Source of the DNA: Pelagibius sp. CAU 1746 | GTDB taxonomy: Bacteria; Pseudomonadota; Alphaproteobacteria; Kiloniellales; Kiloniellaceae | DNA length: 64,000 nucleotides | Reading direction: 5' to 3' | Assembly: GCF_039839785.1 (NCBI RefSeq) | Contig: NZ_JBDOQT010000001.1 | Coordinates: forward strand, 868,001-932,000 | Part shown: positions 14,509-20,477 of the stretch, one piece after another | Layout: each line of letters opens with the position of its first letter | Numbering within the stretch: the first letter of the stretch is position 1 | Notes under the pieces: model-generated | The model's input: the letters and a program-made list of their open reading frames with translations, nothing else | Told to the model about the DNA's origin: nothing | The model's database searches: none | Translations under genes and position numbers: made by a program

Positions 14509-15315
14509 TTGGTGTTAGCGGACCAGTTGTCCGGGTCGGCTGCCGCCACGGCGGCACTGGTTGCGGAAAATATTCACAAATCCTTCGGGGACCTGGAGGT
14601 TCTGAAGGGCGTTTCCTTGACCGCGCGTGAAGGCGACGTCATCGCCATGCTGGGCTCCTCCGGCTCCGGCAAGAGCACCTTCCTGCGCTGCCTCAACCTG
14701 CTGGAGCGGCCCAACGCCGGGCGCATCGTCGTCGCGGGGGAGGAACTGCGCCTGAAGCCGGCCAAGTACGGCGGCGGGCTGGAGGCCGAGGACCGCGAAC
14801 AGATCCGGCGCATCCGCGCGCGCCTGGCCATGGTGTTCCAGAGCTTCAATCTCTGGTCCCATATGACGGTCCTGCAGAACGTCATCGAAGCGCCGGTCCA
14901 CGTGCTGAAGCGGCCCAAGGCCGAGGCGATCGACTACGCCGGCGAGATCCTGCAGAAGGTCGGCCTCTACGACCGCCGCGACTACTATCCCGCGCACCTT
15001 TCCGGCGGCCAGCAGCAGCGCGTCGCCATCGCCCGCGCGCTGGCCATGGATCCGGCGGTGATGCTGTTCGACGAACCGACCTCGGCCCTGGACCCGGAAC
15101 TCGTGGGCGAGGTGCTGCGGGTCATCCGCCGTCTTGCGGAGGAAGGCCGCACCATGATCGTGGTCACGCACGAAATGGGCTTCGCACGCGAGGTCTCCAG
15201 CGAGACGGTCTTCCTGCATGAAGGCCGCGTCGAAGAGCAGGGGCCGCCGCAGGAGGTCTTTACCGCTCCGCGCTCGGCGCGTTTCAGACAGTTCTTGGAG
15301 GGCACCTTGAAATGA
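14509..15315 (+). CDS. Polar (basic) amino acid ABC transporter ATP-binding protein
   Basis: 268 residues with start TTG 14509 or GTG 14512; neither has an obvious ribosome site. Walker A GSSGSGKSTFLRC, signature LSGGQQQRVAIARALAMDPAVMLFDEPTSALDPE, and the HisP/ArtP/GlnQ phrase MVFQSFNLWSHMTVLQNVIEAPVHV. It drives uptake of polar amino acids with the binding protein and two permeases that follow. The gene order ATPase, binding protein, permease, permease is standard for histidine/arginine/octopine systems. The 192 bp upstream, after ccmI, hold no gene. Confidence 0.93.
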   Translation: MVLADQLSGSAAATAALVAENIHKSFGDLEVLKGVSLTAREGDVIAMLGSSGSGKSTFLRCLNLLERPNAGRIVVAGEELRLKPAKYGGGLEAEDREQIRRIRARLAMVFQSFNLWSHMTVLQNVIEAPVHVLKRPKAEAIDYAGEILQKVGLYDRRDYYPAHLSGGQQQRVAIARALAMDPAVMLFDEPTSALDPELVGEVLRVIRRLAEEGRTMIVVTHEMGFAREVSSETVFLHEGRVEEQGPPQEVFTAPRSARFRQFLEGTLK

Positions 15316-15379: not shown

Positions 15380-16171
15380 GTGAAAAAGATTTTCTCCGCG
15401 GTCTTCGTCGCCGCTTTGGCCATCGGCTCGTCCCTGGGGGCGATCCAGGCCGACGCCAAGGAATGGAAGAAGGTTCGCATCGGCGTCGAAGGCGCCTATC
15501 CCCCGTTCAGCGAAGTGACGGCGGATGGCAAGCTGGTCGGCTTCGACATCGACATCGCCAACGCGCTCTGCGATCAGATGAAGGTGGAGTGCGAGCTGGT
15601 GACCCAGGACTGGGACGGCATCATTCCGGCGCTGCAGGCGCGCAAGTACGACGCCATCGTCGCTTCGATGTCGATCACGCCGGAGCGTAAGGAAAAGGTC
15701 GACTTCACCAACAAGTACTACAACACCCCGGCCAAGTTCGTGCGCAAGAAGGGCTCGAGCATCGAGATCACCAAGGACGGCCTGAAGGGCAAGACCGTGG
15801 GCGTGCAGCGCGCCACCATCCACGACAACTTCGTGACCGAAGTTTACGGCGACGAGGTCGAGGTGAAGCGCTACGGCACCCAGGACGAGGCCTATCTCGA
15901 CATGGTCGCCGGGCGCCTCGATCTGCTGCTGGCCGACTCCGTGGCCATCCAGGGCGGCTTCCTGGATACCGACGACGGCAAGGCCTACGAGTTCGTGGGG
16001 CCGGACTTCAGCGATCCGAAGTACTTCGGCGACGGCGCCGGCATCGCCCTGCGCAAGGGCGAAGACGACCTGCGCGAGATGTTCAATCAGGCCATCGAGG
16101 CGATCCGCGCCAACGGAAAGTACAAGGCCATTCAGGACAAGTACTTCGATTTCGACGTCTACGGCAGCTAA
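15380..16171 (+). CDS. Basic amino acid ABC transporter substrate-binding protein
   Basis: 263 residues from GTG 15380 behind a good ribosome site (ATGGAGG). Signal peptide about 1-25 (cleavage near IQADAK). The mature chain has RIGVEGAYPPFSEVTADGKLVGFDIDIANALC and ASMSITPERKEKVDFTNKYYNTPAKFV, the HisJ/ArgT-type (family 3) signature. The sequence fits lysine/arginine/ornithine/histidine binding rather than glutamine, but the ligand is inferred. Confidence 0.92.
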   Translation: MKKIFSAVFVAALAIGSSLGAIQADAKEWKKVRIGVEGAYPPFSEVTADGKLVGFDIDIANALCDQMKVECELVTQDWDGIIPALQARKYDAIVASMSITPERKEKVDFTNKYYNTPAKFVRKKGSSIEITKDGLKGKTVGVQRATIHDNFVTEVYGDEVEVKRYGTQDEAYLDMVAGRLDLLLADSVAIQGGFLDTDDGKAYEFVGPDFSDPKYFGDGAGIALRKGEDDLREMFNQAIEAIRANGKYKAIQDKYFDFDVYGS

Positions 16172-16263: not shown

Positions 16264-16950
16264 ATGGACGAGCTGATCGCCCGCTTGCCGTTCCTGCTCG
16301 AAGGAGCGCTGGTCACCGTGTCGGTGTCGATTCTCTCCGCGCTCATCGCCATCGTGCTTGGCTTGGTGACCGCCGCGGCCAAGCTGTCCAAGTCGCGCCT
16401 CGCCCTCTCGCTCGCCAGCGTCTACACTACCGTGATCCGCGGTGTGCCCGACCTGGTGATGATGCTGCTGATCTACTTCGGAGGCCAGGTGACGGTGAAC
16501 GCCATCGGCGCCTACTTCGATTGGGATTACATCGACATCAATCCCTTCGTCGCGGGAACGCTCACCATCGGCTTCATCTTCGGCGCCTATATGGGCGAGA
16601 CCTTCCGCGGCGCGTTCCTGGCGGTGCCCGTCGGGCTGCTGGAGGCCGGTTACGCCTACGGCATGACCAGGGTGCAGGTCTTCTCGCGCATCCTGATACC
16701 GCAGATGATGCGCCACGCGCTGCCGGGCATCGGCAACAACTGGCTGGTGCTGATGAAGTCGACCGCCCTGGTCGCCGTCATCGGTCTGAACGAGATGGTG
16801 TTCCGTGCCGGGCAGGCCGGCGGTTCGACGCGCCAGCCCTTCGTCTTCTATCTCTTCGTGGCCTTCGTCTTCCTGGCCTTCACCACCGTCTCGATCTGGG
16901 GGCTGCGTTGGGCCGAGAGACGCTACAGCGTCGGCGTGCGGAGGGTCTGA
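16264..16950 (+). CDS. Polar amino acid ABC transporter permease (HisQ/ArtQ type)
   Basis: 228 residues with about five membrane helices. The EAA loop reads EAGYAYGMTRVQVFSRILIPQMMRHALPGIGNNWL, and the N-terminal TVIRGVPDLVMMLLIYFGGQ is the ArtQ/HisQ signature. It pairs with the next permease, three bases away. The ribosome site is GAGGAAG. Confidence 0.92.
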   Translation: MDELIARLPFLLEGALVTVSVSILSALIAIVLGLVTAAAKLSKSRLALSLASVYTTVIRGVPDLVMMLLIYFGGQVTVNAIGAYFDWDYIDINPFVAGTLTIGFIFGAYMGETFRGAFLAVPVGLLEAGYAYGMTRVQVFSRILIPQMMRHALPGIGNNWLVLMKSTALVAVIGLNEMVFRAGQAGGSTRQPFVFYLFVAFVFLAFTTVSIWGLRWAERRYSVGVRRV

Positions 16951-16953
16951 GCC

Positions 16954-17694
16954 ATGGACTTCGGGCCGATCCTGGAGAACTACGACCTCTACCTGGAAGG
17001 GCTGGTGACGACGGTGAAGCTGGTGTCCGCTTCCCTGGTGATCGGCCTGGCCATGGCGATTCCCTTGGCGATCCTGCGGACCTCCAGCAATCCGCTGGTG
17101 AATCTTCCGGTCTGGTCTTTCACCTACTTCTTCCGCGGTACGCCGCTGCTGGTGCAGATGTTCCTGATCTATTACGGCCTGGGCCAGCTGCAGTTCATGA
17201 TCGAGCTCAGCCGCGAAGTCGACTTCCTGCGCGACGCCTACTGGTACGCGCTCTTTGCTTTCACGCTCAACACGGCGGCCTACACCACGGAGATCATCAA
17301 GGGCGCCATCGACGGCACGCCTTACGGCGAGATCGAGGCGGCGCGCGCCTGCGGCATGTCGAAGGCGCAGACCTACACCCGGGTCATCCTGCCCAGCGCC
17401 TTCCGCCGCGCCCTGCCCGCCTACTCCAACGAGGTCATCTTCATGCTGCACGGCTCGGCGATCGCCAGCGTCATCACCATCGTCGATCTGACCGGCGCGG
17501 CGCGCATCGTCAACTCGCGCTACTTCAGCCCCTACGAGGCCTTCCTGTCGGTGGCGGCGCTCTACCTCTGCCTCACTTTCCTTATCGTCGGCGGCTTCAA
17601 GCTGCTGGAGCGGCGCTGGTTCGCCCACCTGCGCCCGCGCGAGGATGTCTCCGGCAAGGCCAAGGACAAAGGCAAGCTTCGCCAGGCAGCCTGA
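16954..17694 (+). CDS. Polar amino acid ABC transporter permease (HisM/ArtM type)
   Basis: 246 residues; hydrophobic helices, YFFRGTPLLVQMFLIYYGLGQL, and the EAA loop EIEAARACGMSKAQTYTRVILPSAFRRALPAYSNEVIFMLHGSAI. The C-terminus is basic. It ends the transporter set, but the sheath-like gene begins only 16 bp downstream with its own strong ribosome site, so the two may be co-transcribed. Confidence 0.92.
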   Translation: MDFGPILENYDLYLEGLVTTVKLVSASLVIGLAMAIPLAILRTSSNPLVNLPVWSFTYFFRGTPLLVQMFLIYYGLGQLQFMIELSREVDFLRDAYWYALFAFTLNTAAYTTEIIKGAIDGTPYGEIEAARACGMSKAQTYTRVILPSAFRRALPAYSNEVIFMLHGSAIASVITIVDLTGAARIVNSRYFSPYEAFLSVAALYLCLTFLIVGGFKLLERRWFAHLRPREDVSGKAKDKGKLRQAA

Positions 17695-17710
17695 CGGGAG
17701 GAGGTGTCCG

Positions 17711-19171
17711 ATGCCGGAATATCTCGCTCCGGGAGTCTATGTCGAAGAGGTCCCCGGCGGGGCACGGCCCATCGTGCCGGTGGAAACCGCCGTTCCCGTC
17801 TTCATCGGCTACACCGAGAAGGCCCAGGGACCGCAGAGGGAGGACCTGACCGGCAGCGCCGTCGAGGTCGCCGCGCTGCGCGACTACCAGGCGCACTTCG
17901 GCGAGGCGCCGATCCATCCGGTGACGCTGACCGTGGAAAAGCGCGTCGACGCCCGTGGCCGGCTGCTGGGTGTCGAGGTCGACTGGCCGCGCCGGCGCAG
18001 CGTCCCGCGCCACTTCATGAACTACGCGCTGCAGCTCTATTTCAGGAACGGTGGTGGGCGCTGTTTCGTCTATTCCCTGGGGCGCTACGGCCGGGCGAGC
18101 GCGGACGACTTCCTGGCCGCGCTTGCCGAGCTGAAGAAGATCAAGGGGCCGACGCTATTGGTCCTGTCCGATGCGGTGAAGCTGAACGCGGCGGACTACG
18201 CGGTGGTGTTGCAGGCGGCGCTGGACGCCTGCGCCAAAACGCGCGACCGCTTCACCGTCGCCGAGGTTCCGGGCGCCCTGCCGGGCGGCACTGACGACCT
18301 GGCGGCGGTCGAGGCCGATTTCCGTGCCCGCCTTGGCGGAGGCCGGCAGAGGCAGTTCGGCGCCGCTTATTTTCCCTACCTGGAAAGCCGTCTGCCGCTG
18401 CGCACCACCGAAGCCCGCGTAATGCTGAAACGCTTCGAGGTCGTCACCGTGGCCAAGGATGGCCGCGAGAGCCGGCGGCAGCGGGGCGCCGCCGCCGGAC
18501 GACCTCTCGACGACCGCCGGCTCGCCCTCGCCAGGCGGGAGCCGGAGGTTTACGACGCGGTCCGGCGGTTTCTGAAGCGTGCCTATGCCACGGTGCCCCC
18601 GTCGGGCGCGGTCGCCGGCCTCTACGCCCGCACCGACGCCACGCGGGGCGTCTGGAAGGCGCCGGCGGGCAACGACGCGCTGGCCGGAGTGAGCGGCCCC
18701 GCGGTGACGGTGAGCGACGGTTTCCAGGAGGCGCTGAACGTCGATCCCGCCGGCGGCAAGTCGGTCAACGCGATCCGCAAGTTCGCCGGGCGCGGCACCC
18801 TGGTCTGGGGCGCCCGCACCCTGGCCGGCAACGACAACGAGTACCGCTACGTCAACGTCCGCCGTCTCTTCATCTTTCTCGAGCAGTCGATCCACGCGGG
18901 CACCCAGTGGGCGGTTTTCGAGCCTAACGAGCCCGCCACCTGGGCCGGTTTGAAAGCCTCGATCGAGAACTTCCTCCACGCGCTCTGGCGGCAAGGCGCC
19001 TTTCAGGGCGCCAAGCCGGAAGAGGCCTTCACGGTCGCCGTGGGCCTGGGCGCGACCATGACCCAGGACGATATCGACAAGGGACGCCTCATCGTCCTGG
19101 TCGGGGTGGCGCCGCTGCGCCCGGCCGAGTTCGTCATCCTGCGTTTCACCCACAAGATCCGCACGCCCTGA
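17711..19171 (+). CDS. Contractile-tail sheath protein, orphan
   Basis: 486 residues from ATG 17711 behind GGGAGGAGG. The N-terminus MPEYLAPGVYVEEVPGGARP and the next VPVFIGYTEKAQ are hallmarks of sheath subunits of contractile phage tails and extracellular injection systems. The C-terminal sheath core is also present: YRYVNVRRLFIFLEQSI, WAVFEPNEPATWAGLKASIENFL, and GRLIVLVGVAPLRPAEFVI. It therefore looks full length and intact. No tube, baseplate, spike, AAA+ ATPase or effector gene is nearby; the neighbours are an amino acid transporter and a cupin gene. Codon use looks like the host's. Role unknown: a component supplied to a distant cluster, or a reused sheath. Confidence 0.85.
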   Translation: MPEYLAPGVYVEEVPGGARPIVPVETAVPVFIGYTEKAQGPQREDLTGSAVEVAALRDYQAHFGEAPIHPVTLTVEKRVDARGRLLGVEVDWPRRRSVPRHFMNYALQLYFRNGGGRCFVYSLGRYGRASADDFLAALAELKKIKGPTLLVLSDAVKLNAADYAVVLQAALDACAKTRDRFTVAEVPGALPGGTDDLAAVEADFRARLGGGRQRQFGAAYFPYLESRLPLRTTEARVMLKRFEVVTVAKDGRESRRQRGAAAGRPLDDRRLALARREPEVYDAVRRFLKRAYATVPPSGAVAGLYARTDATRGVWKAPAGNDALAGVSGPAVTVSDGFQEALNVDPAGGKSVNAIRKFAGRGTLVWGARTLAGNDNEYRYVNVRRLFIFLEQSIHAGTQWAVFEPNEPATWAGLKASIENFLHALWRQGAFQGAKPEEAFTVAVGLGATMTQDDIDKGRLIVLVGVAPLRPAEFVILRFTHKIRTP

Positions 19172-19185
19172 GCAAGCCCGGCCGC

Positions 19186-19629
19186 TTACTCGTCGAAAGT
19201 GGTCAGGGTTGCGCCGGTTTCGGCGACGAAGACGGCCAGCAGACTGGCTTCTTCGGTGGCGCTGGCGTTGGCGCTGACCAGGTGGCGGCTGCCCGGCGGC
19301 TCGAAGAAGCTTTCGCCGGCCTTGTAGACCTTCACCGGCCCGTCCGCCGAGACCTGCGAGCGAATCTCCCCCGACAGCACGAAGGCGAAGACACTGCCGG
19401 CGTGATGGTGGGCGGGCGAGTTGCCGCCCGGCGGGTAGGTCACGACCACCGCGGTCAGCTTCTTGCCCGGCACGTTGCCCAGGTCGTGTGATCCTACGGG
19501 CGCCACCTGAGCGCCTGGGGTTTCGCCCGCTGCGGGTTTCAGGAGGGTGAGAGCCGGCAGGGCGGCAAGCAGGACGACGGTCGCGCAGGCGGCACGGCGG
19601 CGACGGGACTTTAGGACTGGGGTGGACAT
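19186..19629 (-). CDS. Exported cupin-domain protein
   Basis: 147 residues from ATG 19629. A signal peptide or membrane anchor covers about residues 1-37 (RRRR, then an Ala/Leu core, then LKPAAGE). The cupin barrel has VVTYPPGGNSPAHHHAGSVFAFVLSGEI (metal-binding histidines in HHH) and FFEPPGSRHLVSAN. Such small periplasmic cupins have varied or unknown functions. It converges with the sheath gene (14 bp between stops), so it is not part of that operon. Confidence 0.8.
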   Translation of the reverse strand: MSTPVLKSRRRRAACATVVLLAALPALTLLKPAAGETPGAQVAPVGSHDLGNVPGKKLTAVVVTYPPGGNSPAHHHAGSVFAFVLSGEIRSQVSADGPVKVYKAGESFFEPPGSRHLVSANASATEEASLLAVFVAETGATLTTFDE

Positions 19630-19830
19630 GGTCTTGGGCTCCTCTTCTGGTGCGCCCCGCCGACGCGGGCAGGGACTCTCCAGAAATGACGAGCGGGCGC
19701 GCCGTCTTGTGACGTCGCTTTCGGCGATCAGGGCGCCGGGCCGGCGCGGGCTGGGCGGAATCCGCTCGGGGCCGGTTGCCGTACGGGGCCGCCGTCGTTG
19801 CAAGTCGCCGCTGTCTTCAAGAGGGGGAGT

Positions 19831-19906
<76 letters not shown>

Positions 19907-20019: not shown

Positions 20020-20168
20020 GCGGTGCGTTGACCGCCCGATTCCCAGCCTGTTCCCGGCTTTTCCGGGTGGTTCGGCTGCTTGTCTCCGGCCCAAGCGCTG
20101 GGTAGGGTAGCGGCCACTGGTTTCCGAAGTCTTTCCGTCCTTCAGCTTAGGGGTTGAAAAGCCGGCCG

Positions 20169-20477
20169 ATGATCATTCTGGACCCCCTCATTCTTATCGT
20201 CATGGTTGCCCTCGACATCTATATCTGGATGGTGATCGCTTCGGCGATCCTGTCGTGGCTGGTGCACTTCGGCGTGCTCAACACCCGCAATCAGGTGGTG
20301 TCCATGGTTGGCGAGTTCCTCTGGCGTGTGACGGAACCGGCGCTCAGGCCCATCCGCCGCTTCATGCCCAACCTGGGCGGCATCGACATTTCGCCGATCA
20401 TCCTGATCCTCGTCATCTATTTCTTGCAGATGGTGCTGCAGAACATTCGGATAGCGCTCTTCCAAAGCGGGCTGTAA
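20169..20477 (+). CDS. YggT family membrane protein
   Basis: 102 residues from ATG 20169 (TTG 20154 would add five). Two hydrophobic segments, with [14 protein letters not shown], the YggT hallmark [33 protein letters not shown], and the usual single-domain length. YggT proteins are small membrane proteins of uncertain function. It is followed by the DUF167 gene and then folD, a grouping common in alphaproteobacteria. Confidence 0.9.

Follow-up and report, generated by a model that had tools for sequence, protein, structure and literature searches.

A solitary contractile sheath gene at the end of an amino-acid ABC transporter operon in Pelagibius, and standalone relatives in other bacteria

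The sheath gene and its neighbourhood

The stretch of DNA analysed here (64,000 nucleotides, the window) corresponds to 868–932 kb of a 3.56-Mb contig of Pelagibius sp. CAU 1746 (RefSeq assembly GCF_039839785.1, contig NZ_JBDOQT010000001.1), in a genome that is 98.6% complete, so that about 1.4% of the sequence may be missing. An open reading frame on the forward strand (17711–19171), free of internal stops, encodes a 486 aa protein that was recognised as a contractile sheath by Pfam, PHROG, PDB and Foldseek matches. The protein matches PF17482 above the family cut-off (E 9.2e-15), PF04984 slightly below it (E 1.4e-6; 28.6 bits against a cut-off of 31.4) and a tail-sheath PHROG at 1.7e-49. The nearest solved structure is that of Cis2/All3325, a contractile injection system (CIS) sheath of Anabaena, with a PDB match (E 1.7e-97) spanning residues 3–484, in which the LAPGVYVEEV arm at the N-terminus and the core with PAEF at the C-terminus are both aligned. 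Subunits of a sheath are linked by their two terminal arms, and since the alignment to All3325 runs through both ends, the N- and C-terminal arms are both predicted to be present. An AF2 model built from an 18-row alignment had a pLDDT of 80.9 and a pTM of 0.83, with values below 50 in parts of the N-terminal arm and at residues 317–321 and 367–378. Its top Foldseek match was again All3325 (7b5h_AO, E 4.6e-42), followed by the Algoriphagus CIS sheath (E 6.1e-40), and the rmsd of 12–13 Å to both suggests a different orientation of the domains in the model. Thus, with core domain and sheath fold present, the gene encodes an intact full-length contractile sheath of the CIS type.

The gene starts 16 nt after the second of two ABC permease genes (BPD_transp_1; 16954–17694), in a gap that holds GGGAGGAGGTG, with a Shine-Dalgarno-like GGAGGAGGTG (17697–17706, forward strand) just 5' of the ATG. 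The other transporter genes, named from the Pfam scan and likewise on the forward strand, are those for the ABC ATPase (14509–15315), a solute-binding protein of family 3 (15380–16171) and the first permease (16264–16950). On the far side lie a gene for a cupin-domain protein, convergent with the sheath gene (19186–19653, reverse strand), a tRNA-Ala (CGC; 19831–19906, reverse strand), the conserved downstream anchor yggT (20154–20477, forward strand) and folD. No phage genes were recognised near the sheath gene, either among seven neighbours scanned with Pfam, whose products belong to transport, to the cupin and YggT families or to cytochrome biogenesis, or among the remaining neighbours inspected by eye. 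An earlier note made from the letters of this DNA had described a full-length sheath with an N-terminal VYVEEV motif and a C-terminal core, 16 nt after a permease gene and with a strong ribosome site, all of which holds, and structure prediction, which it had proposed as a check, led back to All3325. It had also placed the gene inside the transporter operon; the gene in fact follows the amino-acid ABC operon at its 3' end and is not embedded within it, as the cupin gene, the tRNA and yggT come next.

Partner genes, site history and selection

The window sheath used as a query against its own genome (G000) matched only itself. Partner genes were sought in four families, those of the tube, gp25, Baseplate_J and the Phage_base_V/VgrG spike. 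For the tube, PF06841 gave no match in G000, nor in any control genome, and a profile was built from ten tubes adjoining CIS sheaths (10 rows). This profile found no tube of the Phage_T4_gp19 family in G000 or in the genome of the sister species P. marinus (G002), with matches in 11 of the 17 genomes that included these two and in 14 of 19 further ones. Baseplate_J (PF04865) was likewise found in neither genome, and was matched in five of 16 genomes and three controls; nor was Phage_base_V/VgrG (PF04717), which was matched in seven of 17 genomes and two controls. The search for gp25 (PF04965), which covered only G000 of this pair, gave no match there and matches in two controls. Tube, Baseplate_J and Phage_base_V matches were all present in a congener, G007, and in the CIS carrier G023, and since G007 is a member of the genus these searches work within Pelagibius. 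The orphan status of the sheath, as claimed from the sequence earlier, is therefore confirmed for the part families searched. A complete CIS cluster elsewhere, one of two findings that would have spoken against the note's reading, was looked for by these profile searches and not found, and the suggestion that the gene supplies a distant injection system was rejected for the families tested.

P. marinus (locus L002) has the same gene order, with a sheath 82% identical in amino acid sequence, the cupin gene and a second permease that is 80% identical. Its sheath gene starts 13 nt past the stop of the permease gene, at the same place and in the same frame, and is preceded by a similar GGGAGGG. 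Neither sheath nor cupin was found by tblastn in the permease-to-YggT interval of the five congeners with readable sites (G003–G007), G001 being excluded as its contig starts inside the site. To judge by spacing, the site is empty except for the tRNA in G004, G005 and G006, and other genes occupy it in G003 and G007; gene calling at the site covered four of these five loci (L087/G005 was left out). The tRNA-Ala is present there in P. marinus as well as in the loci of all six other congeners. Across the eight genomes of the genus a sheath match of any kind was obtained in three, the third being G007, in which the sheath adjoins a tube.

Positions 17695–19830 of the window (L089 and L090 in congeners) constitute a variable spot between the ABC operon and the tRNA-Ala, which marks its far edge. 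The occurrence of sheath and cupin here in two species only would, by parsimony, place their insertion in the common ancestor of the two. Arrival beside the tRNA is most simply read from this distribution, with loss in the congeners as the alternative.

The two sheath genes differ with dN 0.098, dS 0.405 and w 0.241 (bootstrap 95% CI 0.178–0.322), an estimate that rests on the two species carrying the gene at a dS of 0.4, and their alignment contains a single one-codon gap, no stop and no frameshift. Eleven neighbouring genes compared between the same loci gave w of 0.09–0.37. In neutral simulations with an equal number of differences the frame was stop-free in five of 1000 runs, and the retention of frame and sequence between the two species exceeds chance. 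With w of 0.24 and an upper limit of 0.32, the gene is not a decaying relic. Its codon use, which had been taken as native, is near-native at a score of 0.395, which is also the lowest among 13 reference genes of the window (0.395–0.697); the cupin gene, at 0.300, is below all of them. These scores fit a sheath gene that was acquired and has partly ameliorated.

A recent prophage piece, already doubted in the earlier note, was rejected on the grounds that no phage neighbours were recognised, that the sites of five congeners are sheath-free and that the frame is under selection. An adjacent lost prophage in the relatives, the other finding that would have counted against the note, was likewise looked for and not found, the five sites being without a sheath, and the sheath occupies the same site in P. 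marinus, as the comparison of gene order brought out. A phage origin was rejected too: none of the 1465 phage records with a match covered 80% of the query, and the best ten of them are partial matches to the C-terminal end, in which about 40% of the last 187 residues are identical (38–39% coverage). One viral contig (4.1 kb) carries a relative, 50% identical in the best segment. Among plasmids, four of the 122 matching records were examined and yielded no standalone sheath. On Iodobacter, Chromobacterium and Parabacteroides plasmids a "phage tail protein" gene, presumably tube-like, lies directly 3' of the sheath gene, and a Pararhizobium plasmid sheath belongs to a CIS.

Standalone sheath genes in other bacteria

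With the window protein as the query, 34 sheath loci were found in GTDB genomes. A tube gene is part of the locus in 27 of them and absent from L002, L004, L005, L006, L008, L009 and L035, of which L008 is a 3.5-kb contig. Sampling of 387 alphaproteobacterial genomes gave a sheath match in 30, of which 18 had E < 1e-20, and the tube profile was blank in seven of these 18 (G000, G011, G206, G262, G208, G100 and G288). Counted as standalone were the sheaths of Pelagibius (two species), of two other alphaproteobacterial genera labelled g2 and g58, of G206, of a Sphingomonadales MAG (L009), of two Pedobacter species and of Gelidibacter. L074, L132, L008 and L035 were not counted, because their contigs are draft or short, a tube lies elsewhere in the genome or the frame is broken. 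The solitary sheaths have no tube or baseplate gene adjoining, and in several of the genomes none was found at all.

The three standalone sheaths of g2 (in G009, G010 and G011; L063:9065–10201, L064:9405–10553 and L065:9380–10501) are syntenic and without the PGVYVEE-type N-terminal linking arm; G009 additionally has a CIS-linked sheath and a tube. Those of g58 (in G208, G100 and G288; L129:9452–10615, L130:9624–10775 and L131:5023–6186), of about 385 aa, are also syntenic, and the arm is missing from two of the three (L129 and L131). All three g58 species have a new common N-terminus, MALKQVVRWMRSMTR, which is perhaps a membrane or binding helix. The G206 gene lies between Nramp-like and gyrB-like genes (named by eye), and the two Pedobacter sheath genes are syntenic with each other.

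Some of these genomes gave matches to baseplate families. The Baseplate_J matches of G206 and the Sphingomonadales MAG probably come from prophage, and the single Phage_base_V matches in G010 and G011, each within a frame of about 655 aa, probably belong to type VI secretion; a Phage_base_V match was also present in one of the two Pedobacter genomes. In Pedobacter and Gelidibacter a tube gene occurs elsewhere in the genome, itself standalone in the stretch read. The Pedobacter tube genes, of the gp19 type (L069:9700–10131 and L070:9863–10294, with Pfam run on L069 only), stand beside a response regulator gene and far from the standalone sheath, and their w is 0.048. In Gelidibacter the tube gene is at L071, and the sheath of G. 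algens (L006:10001–12142) carries an AAA+ ATPase domain (PF00004, E 1.8e-24) as a C-terminal fusion.

Purifying selection was found in each pair of standalone sheaths tested. The g2 genes gave w of 0.09–0.11, the strongest constraint seen among the sheaths, the Pedobacter pair 0.142, and the g58 pairs 0.168, 0.265 and 0.307. Loci compared by eye have no neighbour function in common. The g2 sheath genes lie near a sensor kinase/regulator pair. Two of these three (L063 and L065) adjoin, and are convergent to, an ABC transporter operon, which is not found beside the third (L064), and the other standalone sheaths adjoin unrelated genes. For the note's suggestion that the transporter operon may report nutrient state, these neighbourhoods give mixed evidence.

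In an Actinomycetota MAG whose genome gave no tube match (L035:10001–11121) the sheath is split over two overlapping frames, and is a probable relic or draft error, unlike the window gene. The sheath at L074:9174–10820 (genome G066) lies amid housekeeping-like genes, and the only tube match of that genome is on another contig.

A tree was calculated from 42 sequences, leaving out L035 and 13 CIS-linked sheaths from the Nitrotoga/Betaproteobacteria group that closely resemble one another; L074, L132 and L008, although uncounted, are labelled SOLO in it and were absent from the AU test. In this tree the two Pelagibius sheaths stand apart from the three of g2, and both groups from the three of g58; G206 has a CIS-linked sheath as its sister (100). 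A single clade of the 13 standalone sheaths was rejected (AU p = 6e-5), as were a clade of the seven placed on the Pelagibius side (5e-5) and the groupings of Pelagibius with g2 (1e-5) and with g58 (1e-5). The groupings of g2 with g58 (0.35) and of Pelagibius with Gelidibacter (0.40) were not rejected, and that of Pelagibius with Pedobacter was borderline (0.052). If standalone sheaths never rejoin clusters, at least three origins seem needed by these results, and there were perhaps six or seven.

Possible roles of a solitary sheath

Two sister species of the marine genus Pelagibius keep the sheath without the parts sought in their genomes and unrelated bacteria appear to do likewise, from which it probably has a job of its own. 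Its best explanation, which we hold tentatively and at somewhat less than an even chance, is that an acquired CIS sheath has been domesticated and probably assembles tubeless polysheaths that serve as a scaffold in the cell. The sheath and cupin genes would have been inserted as a pair in the common ancestor of the two Pelagibius species, and the sheath gene would be co-transcribed with the permease gene by read-through of the operon. To judge from its family, the protein may then self-assemble without a tube into cytoplasmic tubules in the contracted state (polysheaths), which, as a guess, could form a structural or sequestering scaffold. Assembly of this kind is supported by phage sheaths, which as recombinant proteins are reported to assemble alone unless N-terminal residues are removed, and by the retention of this arm in the Pelagibius protein, in which polymerisation is suggested by family membership and the arm is modelled at low confidence. 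The earlier idea of adoption for another structural role fits the purifying selection and the recurrence in other lineages.

The g2 sheaths and two of the g58 sheaths have no arm and are nonetheless selected, which speaks against polysheaths as the general role and makes the usual polymerisation look dispensable there. Together with the purifying selection on the window sheath in the absence of partners, they lend some weight to a non-polymer role, in which a monomer or ring binds another protein and, for example, hinders incoming phage tails or acts as a scaffold. This is unlikely for the Pelagibius sheath, in which both arms appear intact from the alignment, and the low and partial identity of its phage relatives (about 40% over 187 C-terminal residues in the best ten of 1465 records) does not suggest co-assembly with a phage sheath. 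Chance arrival of a functionless passenger with the insertion, decaying too slowly to be detected, would suit a variable spot beside a tRNA in which congeners hold other or no cargo, and the slightly atypical codon use. It is rendered quite unlikely by the value of w and its upper limit, which can be set beside those of the eleven neighbouring genes, and by an alignment interrupted only by one codon.

The sheath might also serve an injection system whose parts are too diverged, or are supplied by a plasmid, phage or satellite. The pairing of a standalone sheath with a distant standalone tube in Pedobacter and Gelidibacter shows that scattered parts do occur; such a system is very unlikely here, as G000 lacks matches to tube, gp25, Baseplate_J and Phage_base_V and G002 to tube, Baseplate_J and Phage_base_V, and the three profiles common to both searches do match in the congener G007 as well as in G023, which carries a CIS. 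An assembly artefact or mis-binned contig, for which no support was found, can practically be dismissed: the contig that bears the gene measures 3.56 Mb, genes conserved in the genus stand on both flanks, and the copy at the same site in the separate assembly of P. marinus refutes it.

Domestication of the sheath may extend beyond Pelagibius. Sheaths may have become solitary host genes under selection through repeated domestication, on at least three occasions, a proposal that is plausible but held with less than even confidence and that would make them a tail counterpart of encapsulins. The sheath is viewed as a motor that surrounds a tube, and a sheath that is selected without a tube would be a protein useful by itself, its most plausible form being a cytoplasmic tubule that assembles itself.

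Among known systems, the Anabaena thylakoid-anchored CIS sheath Cis2/All3325 (7b5h) is a full-length relative with the same arms and core. In the passages of PMC8894136 concerned, it belongs to a cluster encoding 17 proteins assembled around a tube, whereas the window sheath gene is alone. The closest CIS-linked relatives among those seen are the sheaths of Meridianimarinicoccus roseus (L003) and Pararhizobium sp. A13 (L135), about 42% identical over nearly the full length; in their loci genes for tube, spike, gp25 and baseplate come after the sheath gene, and the window sheath is without them. With eCIS and type VI secretion the window genome shares the sheath component and differs in the absence of tube, Baseplate_J and Phage_base_V/VgrG matches from both G000 and G002. 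A parallel for assembly is offered by gp053 of phage FV3, a member of the same protein family that assembles without tube or baseplate; according to the portions of PMC6357053 that treat it, recombinant phage sheath proteins form long polysheath tubes in vivo by themselves, with the rest of the viral proteins absent, and polysheath formation is abolished once 29 residues are cut from the N-terminus. The gp053 polysheaths are formed by a recombinant phage protein, whereas the window sheath is a natural solitary host gene.

Among the titles and abstract openings listed from the open-licence PMC literature none speaks of solitary sheath genes, and these are unmentioned in the Discussion of a paper on sheath evolution (PMC9230969). 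As set out in the relevant passages, one CIS survey demanded at least ten core genes (PMC8213781) and another baseplate, tube and sheath-initiator genes (PMC12210884); both thus demand multi-gene clusters, by which solitary sheaths would be missed. The passages of a review of repurposed mobile elements (PMC8987985) name encapsulins, standalone genes derived from the HK97 capsid; the single occurrence of "tail sheath" in the review is in the title of a T6SS reference. Encapsulins are likewise a phage structural protein retained as a single host gene; they are a different protein, forming particles that sequester cargo proteins, a role that for the window sheath would be conjecture. If the proposed role is true, solitary sheaths would be the tail-derived counterpart of encapsulins, overlooked by CIS surveys that look for whole clusters.
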